Assembly: GCA_023621975.1 (NCBI GenBank)
Contig: JAMOAC010000303.1
Span: forward strand, 1-5,264
DNA length: 5,264 nt
Reading direction: 5' to 3'
From: Bacillota bacterium
GTDB taxonomy: Bacteria > Bacillota_A > Clostridia > Acetivibrionales > DUMB01
Positions 1,936 to 5,239 of this stretch are shown in pieces (the first letter of the stretch is position 1; every line of letters begins with the position of its first letter). Below the pieces are notes generated by a model. That model saw only the letters and a program-made list of their open reading frames with translations. It searched no databases and was not told the DNA's origin. The translations under genes were made by a program, and so were the position numbers.

Positions 1936-1941
1936 ATTATA
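1936..1941 (-). promoter_or_regulatory. -10 element (TATAAT) of an internal promoter upstream of the secreted-protein gene
   Basis: The minus strand reads a perfect TATAAT here. At spacings of 16-18 bp no good TTGACA -35 is present (the 17-bp position reads ATGGAA). The region where a -35 would sit is instead occupied by the WalR box, whose near edge is 10 bp upstream. This matches activator-dependent promoters of the PhoB/OmpR class, where the operator substitutes for the -35. Transcription would start at about 1929, giving a leader of about 90 nt before the ATG at 1838. Confidence 0.6.
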
Positions 1942-1951
1942 TCTCTTATAT

Positions 1952-1968
1952 ATTACAATTCCATTACA
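1952..1968 (-). promoter_or_regulatory. WalR operator (WalR box, TGTAAT-N5-TGTAAT)
   Basis: The minus strand reads TGTAAT, then GGAAT, then TGTAAT. This matches the published WalR (YycF) consensus TGTWAH-N5-TGTWAH at every defined position. It begins 6 bp beyond the walK stop codon. It lies in the only sizeable gap of the operon, 10 bp upstream of a TATAAT. The binding site and its cognate regulator are therefore within the same operon, which argues for autoregulated expression of the downstream secreted protein and yycH. The site is seen directly; the activating sign is inferred from the geometry. Confidence 0.75.
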
Positions 1969-1974
1969 TCATAT

Positions 1975-3756
1975 TTAAGAATAAATTACAGGAAGTTTTA
2001 TCGTAACCTCGGTACCTTTGCCGTATTCGCTCTTTATGGTCAAAGTACCGGAATGGGCTTCAACAATTTCCTTGGCAATAGACAGCCCCAGGCCTGTTCC
2101 TCCCATTTCACGGGAACGCGCCTTGTCAACCCTGTAAAACCTTTCAAATATTCTTGGCAGGTCTTCTTCAGGAATCCCTATTCCGGTATCAACAATCTTT
2201 ATGTTTATGGCATCGTATATGCTGCTTACATATACCGTAATTTTACCGTTTTCAGGAGTATACTTTATTGCATTGCTCAGCAAATTCAGCATAACCTGTT
2301 CCATTCTGTCATAGTCTGCCCTGGTTTCAGGAATGTTGCCCATAACAAAGCATTCAAGCTGCTGATTCTTGTTTTTTGCCTCGATCTGCATCTTTTCAAC
2401 AGAGCTTTTAACCAGCTTATCAATCATAACAGGCTCCATTCGCCACTGCATCTGATTATTGTCAAGTTTTGAGAGCTGAAGAAGGTCCCTGACCAGCCTC
2501 GTCATCCTGTCTGCCTCCGAGTTTATAACCCCGAGGAATTTCTGCGCAACTTCAACATCTTCCAGCATTCCGTCCAGCAGTGTCTCGGTGTAGCTCTTTA
2601 TGGAAGTAAGAGGCGTCCTCAGCTCGTGGGAAACGTTGGCAACAAACTCCTTACGCATATTCTCAAGCTTCTGCTGTTCCGTTATATCGTGCAGGACGGC
2701 AATTATACCCTGAGGCTTTGAGGATTTGTCGGTAAATACGGCAAAGTAAACGCTTATGTCCCTTTCACCTACTTTTATGTTTGCCTCCTTGCTGCTCAAT
2801 ACCTCAAGGTAAAGCACTTCCTGAAGGTCAATATCAATATTGTAATCCCTGGTAAAAGATGCAAAATCCATGCTGGAGTCAATTTTGCCCAGGATTTTTT
2901 CAGCCGCAGGATTTGCGTGTATGATCTTTCCCTTCAGATCGAAAGCAATTACCCCGTCCGTCATGTAATTCAGGATTGTCTCGACCTTGTTTTTTTCGCT
3001 TGATATTCCGTCAAGGGTCTCCTTCAGGCTTGTTGCCATGTAGTTAAATGTCTTTGTCAACTGCCCTATCTCATCATTTGACTTTACTTCAAGGGTCTGG
3101 TCGAAATCCCCTGCGGCAATTGCCTGAGCCTTGTGCATTATGCGCACAATCGGCATTGTAACAGTTTTTGAAAGTATATATCCAAGCACAAAGGCTACAG
3201 TAAACGCAATCACAATGCTGGTTACCAGTGACCTGTTGAAGCTGTCAATAACTCCCTGCCATTCATCCTTGTAGCACCTGAAATATAGCACAAAGTCGCC
3301 TTCAGGCCTTGCATAGTCCAGGAATTCGCTGTCCCCGATGCTTATAAGTTTCCTTTCGTTGCCTATTTCGCCGTTAAGCGCGCGGATAAAGTTATCCGAC
3401 GCCAACAGCTGGTTCAGAAACGCTCCCTTGTCTTCCTCATCAAAATTCGGATCGGAGGATGCTATTTCATTGATATCACGCCTGTCAACAATCGTATAGC
3501 TTTTATTTTCCCCAATAATGGAAAACAGACCTGCAAAGTTGTTATCTCTGAGGTCGCTGAAAATTACTTCAACAGTCGGCTCATCAAATTTATCTATGCT
3601 CCAACCCTTGAAACCGTTATCAACATCACGTCTGAAATTTTTATAATATGAATCTTCAACCTTTTTGTTTAAATACAAGCCTATCGGTATTATCAGGCAA
3701 AATGCCATTAGGCAGAAAAAACTAACCAATCTCCACTGCAAACTTTTTGAAAACAT
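1975..3756 (-). CDS. walK: Sensor histidine kinase WalK (YycG)
   Basis: This 593-residue membrane kinase senses the cell-wall state and phosphorylates WalR. The domains in order are: TM1 at about 9-30; an extracytoplasmic sensor domain at about 31-175; TM2 at about 178-197; a HAMP linker at about 198-250 (MPIVRIM, then DEIGQL); a PAS domain at about 254-360; HisKA with the H-box FVANVSHELRTPL and phospho-acceptor His377; and HATPase_c with the N-box (N491, N495), the G1 box DTGIGIP (523-529), the F-box RIFERFYRVD (535-544) and the G2 box GGTGLG (552-557). All catalytic motifs are intact. The length is close to Bacillus WalK (about 611), and the order with both an extracytoplasmic domain and an internal PAS is the WalK type. 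AGAGGT lies 5 nt before the ATG. The gene starts 13 nt after walR stops, so the two are translated from one mRNA. PhoR is the main alternative, but YycH downstream favours WalK. Confidence 0.93.
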   Translation of the reverse strand: MFSKSLQWRLVSFFCLMAFCLIIPIGLYLNKKVEDSYYKNFRRDVDNGFKGWSIDKFDEPTVEVIFSDLRDNNFAGLFSIIGENKSYTIVDRRDINEIASSDPNFDEEDKGAFLNQLLASDNFIRALNGEIGNERKLISIGDSEFLDYARPEGDFVLYFRCYKDEWQGVIDSFNRSLVTSIVIAFTVAFVLGYILSKTVTMPIVRIMHKAQAIAAGDFDQTLEVKSNDEIGQLTKTFNYMATSLKETLDGISSEKNKVETILNYMTDGVIAFDLKGKIIHANPAAEKILGKIDSSMDFASFTRDYNIDIDLQEVLYLEVLSSKEANIKVGERDISVYFAVFTDKSSKPQGIIAVLHDITEQQKLENMRKEFVANVSHELRTPLTSIKSYTETLLDGMLEDVEVAQKFLGVINSEADRMTRLVRDLLQLSKLDNNQMQWRMEPVMIDKLVKSSVEKMQIEAKNKNQQLECFVMGNIPETRADYDRMEQVMLNLLSNAIKYTPENGKITVYVSSIYDAINIKIVDTGIGIPEEDLPRIFERFYRVDKARSREMGGTGLGLSIAKEIVEAHSGTLTIKSEYGKGTEVTIKLPVIYS

Positions 3757-3769
3757 ATATGACCTCTAC

Positions 3770-4468
3770 CTAGAATTTATTGAAATAATACCCAACTCCC
3801 CTTTTCGTCAACAGGAATTCATAGTTGCCGTTATTGGATTTTCTCTCTATTTTTTCCCTGACTCTCCTTACGGTAACATCTACGGTGCGCACATCACCGT
3901 AATACTCGTAGCCCCACACTTTTTCCAGCAGGGCTTCCCTTGAAAATACCTGTCCCTGGTGCTGGGCAAGGAATTTCACCAGTTCGAACTCTCTTAATGT
4001 CAGTTCAATTACTTCTCCGTCACGCCTTACTTCGTAGCTGTCCAGATCTATCTCAAGGCTTCCGCATTTAATAATATTCGAACTGCTTCCTGACGATCCA
4101 CCGGCAGCATGTCTTCTAAGGTTGGCCTTTACCCTTGCCATAAGTTCTCTTGTACTGAAGGGCTTGGTAATGTAATCATCCGCTCCAAGTTCAAGTCCAA
4201 GAACTTTATCCACTTCTTCCTCCTTGGCAGTCAGCATGAGTATAGGCACCGAGCTGGACTGCCTCACTTTGCGGCACACTTCAAACCCGTCCATTTTAGG
4301 AAGCATTACATCAAGAATGACAAGATCAGGGTTCTCATTAAGTGCCATTTCAAGCCCTTCTTCTCCATCATAAGCCTCTATGGTCTCAAAACCTTCTTTC
4401 CTGAGATTAAATTTCAAAATATCTACAATGTTTTTTTCATCGTCCACAATAAGTACTTTTTTACCCAC
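3770..4468 (-). CDS. walR: Response regulator WalR (YycF), OmpR/PhoB family
   Basis: This encodes 232 residues, close to the 235 of Bacillus WalR. The receiver domain (1-120) has the acidic pocket Asp9/Asp10, phospho-acceptor Asp53 (ILDVMLPKMDG), Thr80 and Lys102. A Gly/Ser-rich linker (121-130) leads to a winged-helix DNA-binding domain (about 133-231) with recognition helix RTVDVTVRRVREKIE (194-208) and the GVGYYF wing. The phosphorylated protein binds TGTWAH direct repeats and controls autolysin and cell-wall genes; one such box lies in this operon. I chose the GTG at 4468 because AGGGAG sits 8 nt upstream and the protein then begins MGKKVLIVDDE, as in the family. An in-frame TTG at 4486 would add six residues (LQGVCF) but would bury the ribosome binding site. 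Thr101 matches the residue that the Ser/Thr kinase PrkC phosphorylates in Bacillus WalR. Another PhoB-like regulator cannot be excluded by sequence alone, but the operon argues for WalR. Confidence 0.93.
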   Translation of the reverse strand: MGKKVLIVDDEKNIVDILKFNLRKEGFETIEAYDGEEGLEMALNENPDLVILDVMLPKMDGFEVCRKVRQSSSVPILMLTAKEEEVDKVLGLELGADDYITKPFSTRELMARVKANLRRHAAGGSSGSSSNIIKCGSLEIDLDSYEVRRDGEVIELTLREFELVKFLAQHQGQVFSREALLEKVWGYEYYGDVRTVDVTVRRVREKIERKSNNGNYEFLLTKRGVGYYFNKF

Positions 4469-4476
4469 AAAACACA

Positions 4477-4482
4477 CTCCCT
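4477..4482 (-). promoter_or_regulatory. Ribosome binding site deciding the GTG start of walR
   Basis: The minus strand reads AGGGAG, 8 nt upstream of the GTG at 4468. The spacing is ideal for that GTG, while the site lies inside the six-codon extension that a TTG start at 4486 would require. No comparable purine-rich site precedes the TTG. Confidence 0.7.
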
Positions 4483-4669
4483 GCAAATCATAATATAAGC
4501 GTGCAACTCAAAAATCAAAATTCATTCAGATTGTTCTTTGCGATTTGGATTATTTCAATCATGTTACGCAGCACTATAAAATGATACACACTTATAAACG
4601 ATATTTGCCCTTTTACACTACTTAGAAATATTGACGTTTTTTACAGAACACCTCGCATATTCACATTCT

Positions 4670-4734: not shown

Positions 4735-4771
4735 ATATTTTCATAAAATTACTGATATTTTCATAAAATTA
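4735..4771. repeat. Two tandem 17-bp direct repeats resembling the CodY box
   Basis: The 17-mer ATATTTTCATAAAATTA occurs exactly twice, at 4735-4751 and 4755-4771, with a 20-bp period and a 3-nt gap. Each copy is a near-palindrome (ATTTT-cat-AAAAT). Against the CodY consensus AATTTTCWGAAAATT each copy (4736-4750 and 4756-4770) matches 13 of 15 positions, missing only the first base and the G. The pair lies between the two divergent promoters. The repeat is certain. The link to CodY, a GTP/branched-chain-amino-acid-responsive repressor, is inference, and I cannot tell whether this organism has CodY. Confidence 0.6.
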
Positions 4772-4783
4772 TTCAATAATTTT
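4765..4783. repeat. 19-bp perfect palindrome upstream of the spo0E-like promoter
   Basis: AAAATTATT, a central C, then AATAATTTT form a perfect inverted repeat with 9-bp arms. It overlaps the second 17-bp repeat and ends 10 bp before the -35 hexamer at 4794. All arm bases are A/T, so a chance origin is less unlikely than for a mixed sequence. The position is that of an operator. It is a poor terminator candidate because it has no GC stem and almost no loop. Confidence 0.5.
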
Positions 4784-5050: not shown

Positions 5051-5239
5051 ATGGACGTGTCACAAAAGACAATTGGTGCTCTAATCGCTGAAATGCACGA
5101 TCAGCTCAATCAACTAATAGAAAGCAGCAATTATGATTTAATGAATGACAAAGTACAACAGTTCAGCCGGGAACTTGACAAATTGATTATAATGTACAGT
5201 CAGATACAAGATGAAAACAATAAGTCATCTTTAACTTAA
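5051..5239 (+). CDS. Spo0E-like aspartyl-phosphate phosphatase, sporulation regulator
   Basis: This encodes a 62-residue, probably cytoplasmic protein of two helices. Helix 1 covers about residues 6-25 (GALIAEMHDQLNQLIE) and helix 2 about 30-50. Helix 2 carries the Spo0E family signature at 38-46, FSRELDKLI, corresponding to the S-Q-E-L-D motif with Arg in place of Gln. Family members (Spo0E, YisI and YnzD in Bacillus) dephosphorylate the sporulation regulator Spo0A~P and so delay sporulation. The size is typical of the short members. The gene has its own promoter and a strong ribosome binding site and is divergent from walRK. No terminator is visible in the 25 bp left before the window ends. 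The family is clear from the signature, but the actual target in this organism is inferred. Confidence 0.87.
   Translation: MDVSQKTIGALIAEMHDQLNQLIESSNYDLMNDKVQQFSRELDKLIIMYSQIQDENNKSSLT

Follow-up and report, generated by a model that had tools for sequence, protein, structure and literature searches.

Recurrence of a WalR box before a secreted protein-yycH-yycI operon in Clostridia suggests feedback within the Wal system

Introduction

In a clostridial wal locus, a WalR consensus box followed by a TATAAT hexamer lies between walK and the gene for a secreted protein, and the two very probably act together as a WalR~P-activated, PhoB-like promoter of a unit comprising that gene, yycH, and yycI, through which WalR would feed back on WalK. 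The locus is contained in a contig of 5,264 nucleotides from a member of the Acetivibrionales (JAMOAC010000303.1), referred to below as the window. That the box recurs before this one operon in relatives suggests, on the strength of sequence comparison, that the Wal system includes a feedback loop.

WalRK is essential in most Firmicutes, and the role of YycH and YycI in the system is disputed. YycHI are reported to act as activators in S. aureus and as repressors in B. subtilis (PMC10746227), the latter being the species in which WalH and WalI inhibit WalK (PMC7299342). S. aureus walRKHI is described as a single operon that has promoters upstream of walR, is not autoregulated, and yielded no WalR site in that promoter region (PMC4801191), and S. 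aureus yycH and yycI are described as cotranscribed with walRK (PMC7355866). For C. difficile, the operon is walA-walR-walK-truA2, and no autoregulation of the wal operon is reported in this species or other Firmicutes (PMC9210968). Set against that published statement, a conserved WalR box before the YycHI operon makes the question of feedback directly testable. Neither a WalR box before yycHI nor the secreted-protein family appeared among the titles and abstracts listed in our literature search, with subscription papers lying mostly outside it.

Results

The wal genes of the window are read from the minus strand. walR (yycF; 3770 to 4486) is followed by a gene for a walK-type sensor kinase with HAMP, PAS, HisKA, and HATPase domains (1975 to 3756), a gene for a secreted protein of 175 amino acids (1311 to 1838) with a likely ribosome-binding site, GAGGAG, at 1847 to 1852, and a yycH-like gene (2 to 1282) that is cut by the window end. 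The last was assigned from its position and its A2 family; the cut protein scores 26.2 bits to PF07435, below the gathering score of 27. The box lies in the gap between the end of the walK open reading frame (ORF) at 1975 and the start of the next ORF at 1838.

On the minus strand the array reads TGTAAT-ttatt-CTTAAA-tatga-TGTAAT-ggaat-TGTAAT-atataagaga-TATAAT, with four half-sites in one 11-bp register. Half-site 1 (TGTAAT, 1985 to 1990) is inside the 3' end of walK and half-site 2 (CTTAAA, 1974 to 1979) overlaps the walK stop codon, both being recognized from a conserved register, while half-sites 3 and 4 (TGTAAT at 1963 to 1968 and at 1952 to 1957) are the two halves of the consensus box, recognized from sequence and conservation. 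From 1968 to 1952 the box, TGTAAT-GGAAT-TGTAAT, is an exact instance of TGTWAH-N5-TGTWAH, which serves as the WalR motif in PMC9210968. Ten base pairs (1951 to 1942) separate it from the -10 hexamer TATAAT at 1936 to 1941, and transcription would be expected to start near 1929. The motif has a chance expectation of 0.05 in the window and occurred at least once in 10 of 200 shuffles, so the match alone is modest evidence and the case is carried by conservation.

A plain sigma-70 promoter was considered and rejected. The promoter scan of the window returned no sigma-70 site using the TATAAT at 1936 to 1941, and across 88 strict operon promoters (see below) matches to TTGACA at 16 to 18 bp from the -10 were no better than random. 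A preliminary description of this DNA had claimed a full WalR consensus match after walK, a 10-bp distance to TATAAT, and no proper -35, and had likened the arrangement to PhoB-type promoters; the first three points are borne out at the window locus, and the PhoB-type geometry is supported by the 10- to 11-bp distance to a -10 that has no -35. The description was incomplete, there being four half-sites rather than two at this locus and yycI belonging to the transcription unit as well.

A regulator with a WalR-like recognition helix is encoded beside the box. It passes the NCBIfam model resp_reg_YycF (343.6 bits; cut-off, 340), and the best match of its DNA-binding domain is B. subtilis YycF (2d1v), at 115.8 bits compared to about 58 bits for PhoB. 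The helix segment RTVDVTVRRVREKIE, which we take to be the recognition helix, differs at one residue from RTVDVTVRRLREKIE in B. subtilis YycF. The kinase scores 484 bits with HK_WalK of NCBIfam, below the cut-off of 725, and 409.5 bits with the PnpS model, above the cut-off of 400; it is named WalK here because of gene order and WalR, and such scores indicate that automated naming of clostridial WalK may mislead. The PnpS score also favors assigning the box to another OmpR-family regulator, such as one of the PhoP/PhoB type, which likewise uses repeats spaced at 11 bp, and the architecture is that of pho boxes. We nevertheless consider such a regulator improbable. The DNA-binding domain is nearest to that of YycF, the motif is the published WalR consensus, the box accompanies WalK partner genes even when these are detached from walRK, and 6 of the 15 strict matches elsewhere lie at peptidoglycan hydrolase genes by Pfam, with pst/pho genes not seen beside the 15, as detailed below.

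Conservation was examined in relatives, and the genome-wide comparisons concern the relatives' genomes rather than the window's own. A WalK scan gave 37 loci, two of which (L032 and L037) were left out of the analysis. Twenty loci (L001 to L020) from 18 assemblies, with L003 and L007 sharing one assembly and L008 and L012 another, include Acetivibrio, Ruminiclostridium, Anaerobacterium, Sporosalibacterium, Thermohalobacter, and Caloranaerobacter. All 20 have profile matches to the secreted protein, yycH, and yycI downstream of walK, and all 20 keep the box and a -10 after walK, with 10 or 11 bp between the two. Nineteen boxes are exact, that of L009 having one change (CGTAAC), and 19 loci have TATAAT, with TATACT in L011. 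The preliminary description had held that absence of the box from close relatives with the same gene order would refute it; the box is present in all 20 loci of this order. Twelve of the 15 further WalK loci have neither the box nor yycH, yycI, or secreted-protein profile matches downstream and were treated as other kinases. In the remaining three (L028, L029, and L031) yycH overlaps the walK stop and is followed by yycI, with the secreted gene and the box absent, and in L203 yycH likewise overlaps walK, with neither secreted gene nor box there; lacking the secreted gene, these four do not keep the gene order. Boxes on the opposite strand upstream of walR in L009 and L011 look like chance, having no -10 and no clear gene.

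A census was then taken from the box itself, using the strict pattern TGTAAY-N5-TGTAAY-N(9-12)-TATAAT. In eight relatives with genomes of 3.8 to 6.4 Mb it occurs once per genome, each time beside walK. Among 391 Clostridia-class genomes there are 104 places in 101 genomes, 98 of which have exactly one, and the reversed pattern gave 2 places; the other 290 genomes have no strict match. Of these places, 102 were read, L038 and L039 being already known, and at 87 of them begins the operon secreted Ig-like protein-YycH-YycI. Both secreted-protein and yycH profiles match at 84; L102 and L150 match the secreted protein alone and have little downstream sequence, and L095 matches yycH alone. Where 2.9 kb or more of downstream sequence is available (61 operon places), yycI is present at 57. 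The operon count includes the profile-scan finds L058, L069, L096, L102, L103, L106, L128, and L137 and the yycH-only L095, and it excludes L115, a weak match that has no yycH and encodes an SLH protein.

Spacing and the upstream half-sites are conserved as well. Of the 88 strict operon promoters, 74 have 10 bp and 14 have 11 bp between the box and the -10, in a search that allowed 9 to 12. In positions relative to the start of the consensus box, TGTAA or TGTTA stands in the register of half-site 1 (-22) in 61 of 87 operon promoters (0.6% of shuffles) and TTAA in that of half-site 2 (-10 to -7) in 71 (1.3% of shuffles); both are present in 55, compared to 0.006% of shuffles. No other register of extra half-sites is prominent among the 88 promoters. 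As the upstream half-sites are outside the search pattern, their conservation is evidence that the search did not bring with it. The upstream pair is complete in 52 of 67 walK-adjacent promoters and in none of 13 promoters detached from walK, 6 of which carry a TGTAA or TGTTA half-site at -11 instead. The upstream pair is thus typical of the walK-attached form only, whereas the consensus pair is constant, and a full set of four half-sites is not a requirement.

The box travels with the operon. Seventy-nine operon places have at least 900 nt upstream (six with less were left unclassed); 65 of them have walK within 600 bp and 13 have no walK upstream, and the 13 detached places keep the box. In these 13 genomes the best YycF-model regulator is on a contig other than that of the operon. 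Its scores, taken over 14 genomes (the 13 and that of L150), are 306 to 340 bits, with one reaching the cut-off of 340. By eye, upstream neighbors at some detached places resemble parA, rlmB, uppP, or dnaE. Independence of the unit from walRK, also put forward in the preliminary description, gains support from these 13 places, where the operon is elsewhere and the box is kept. L150 was not counted as detached, since the regulator is on the same contig and one ORF lies between kinase and box; that ORF is long (about 920 amino acids), has a signal-peptide-like start, and separates the end of the walK-like kinase from the box-led operon.

The association was also approached from the secreted protein, with an A1 profile of 46 members run over the 391 genomes. 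It gave matches in 165 genomes at an E value of ≤0.001, the last ones weak, and 121 genes, counted by eye, at an E value of ≤8.9e-15. A strict box precedes 83 of the 121; upstream sequence is available for 37 of the other 38, and 33 of these score 16 or 17 of 18, compared to a maximum of 15 over 1,539 background windows. Thus, a box or near match precedes 116 of 120 strong homologues with upstream sequence, a proportion to be read with the profile's origin in box-linked genes, from which a box-free branch could have escaped. Boxes that depart from the strict pattern mostly have CGTAAY or a single altered base in the -10. Four places score at or under the background maximum, L182, L189, and L191 at 15 and L186 at 10, and these count against the proposed association. 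At L202 a divergent secreted protein is unmatched by the A1 profile, and its box scores 17 of 18. A functionless chance box in an AT-rich gap would be compatible with the expectation in the window alone, but conservation of position, spacing, and downstream genes across genera, the excess of 104 places over 2, and a background that never reaches 16 make this explanation vanishingly improbable.

The first product of the operon consists of a signal helix, one Ig-like beta-sandwich, and a C-terminal helix, and it belongs to the family of the A1 alignment. The folds matched are common Ig-like folds that give no functional clue, the Ig-like domain Pfam score of the window's protein is below cut-off, and database searches returned no functional name. 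Compared with Ig-like beta-sandwich domains such as domain B of glucodextranase, the protein is free-standing and secreted, with a C-terminal helix and no enzyme attached. Matches to PF07435 at an E value of ≤0.01 were obtained for 11 of 33 A2 members, and YycI (PF09648), the third gene in relatives and outside the window, was matched at the same threshold in 21 of 31 A3 members. No solved structure matched the YycH-like and YycI-like profiles at an E value of ≤0.001, and this comparison therefore does not confirm that they are homologous to the YycH and YycI proteins of solved structure.

Of the 15 strict places away from the operon, six are at peptidoglycan hydrolase genes by Pfam: the box precedes NlpC/P60 genes at L094, L116, L117, and L118 and an Amidase_3 gene at L143 and is divergent from Amidase_3 at L093. 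The protein at L142 is 54% identical to that at L143 over 112 amino acids, its contig stopping short of the amidase domain. These seven places are candidate direct WalR targets in Clostridia. The others are an ABC transporter (L113, and by eye L114), S-layer-domain proteins (L115, and L120 in the opposite orientation), P5C reductase (L151), a PTS gene encoded on the opposite strand (L152), and two proteins without a Pfam match (L077 and L145); some of the remaining places are likely chance. No pst/pho gene was seen at the 15 places, of which 14 were Pfam scanned, two of these being matchless, and L114 was inspected by eye.

Discussion

PhoB and B. subtilis PhoP, bound to their repeats, stand in for a -35 and recruit RNA polymerase. 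We propose that the wal locus has a second WalR-controlled transcription unit, encoding the secreted Ig-like protein, YycH, and YycI, that would be switched on in the same manner. Dimers of WalR~P would bind the direct repeats of 11-bp period, the consensus pair lying at about -39 to -23 and, at the window locus, the upstream pair extending to about -61. The bound regulator would take the place of the absent -35 and bring RNA polymerase to the TATAAT. The likeness to the E. coli PhoB pho-box and B. subtilis PhoP promoters lies in 11-bp direct repeats about 10 bp from a -10 with the -35 replaced; the half-site and the regulator differ, and the target belongs to the cell wall instead of phosphate. 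With WalR promoters of B. subtilis, S. aureus, and C. difficile it shares the TGTWAH-N5-TGTWAH box, a recognition helix that is near-identical in the B. subtilis comparison, and, in some Clostridia, the box and -10 at peptidoglycan hydrolase genes. It is unlike them in that the target is the sensor's own accessory operon.

Another possible outcome of binding is repression, with the box covering the region of RNA polymerase -35 contact. In S. aureus, the position of the WalR site is reported to set activation or repression, sites upstream of the -35 activating and sites between or downstream of the -35 and -10 repressing (PMC10746227). The box overlaps the -35 position, as repression would have it, and because it covers the -35 region, a rule framed for sites upstream of the -35 applies uncleanly. 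Repression nonetheless seems unlikely to us, as there is no -35 to block, with random-level matches in the 88 promoters, and as the fixed 10- to 11-bp spacing and the TATAAT suit an activator that replaces the -35. Moreover, the hydrolase class with the same arrangement is WalR activated in B. subtilis and S. aureus, according to two reports (PMC7299342 and PMC10746227).

If WalR~P activates the unit, as we favor, its output would alter the amount of WalK's own regulators, since YycH and YycI are WalK partners. The resulting loop may be homeostatic, that is, negative, a sign taken from the inhibition of WalK by YycHI in B. subtilis; were YycHI activators, as in S. aureus, the loop would be positive. 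The secreted protein would act on the outer face of a WalK-YycH-YycI complex. It is conceivable, and we offer it tentatively, that this protein is a third member of the WalK accessory complex, made under WalR~P, exported, and reporting with YycH and YycI the state of the wall to WalK. A secreted protein, cd630_07390, is the top WalR-induced one of C. difficile in Table 2 of PMC9210968. If the Ig-like protein is a third WalK partner, many Clostridia would possess an accessory Wal branch under autoregulation, one that is absent from the systems described in Bacilli and C. difficile. The Wal system gains a conserved secreted protein, and the box-led promoter, with its single strict match in nearly all matching genomes, would serve as a readout of WalR activity in many Clostridia.

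The order walR-walK-...-yycH-yycI is that of walRKHI(J) in Bacilli, from which the clostridial locus differs in that walK and yycH are separated by the gene for the secreted protein and by a WalR box. At L202, yycI is followed by genes that by eye resemble murA, walJ (metallo-beta-lactamase type), and rlmH, and from this locus, with its genes named by eye, the wal cluster reaches through murA in some Clostridia. At the other end of the window locus, the region upstream of walR contains TTTTCATAAAATTA twice within about 35 bp (4738 to 4775). Divergent from walR is a Spo0E-like ORF of 62 amino acids (5051 to 5239, plus strand; PF09388, 28.6 bits; cut-off, 23), a possible link of the wal locus to sporulation control.
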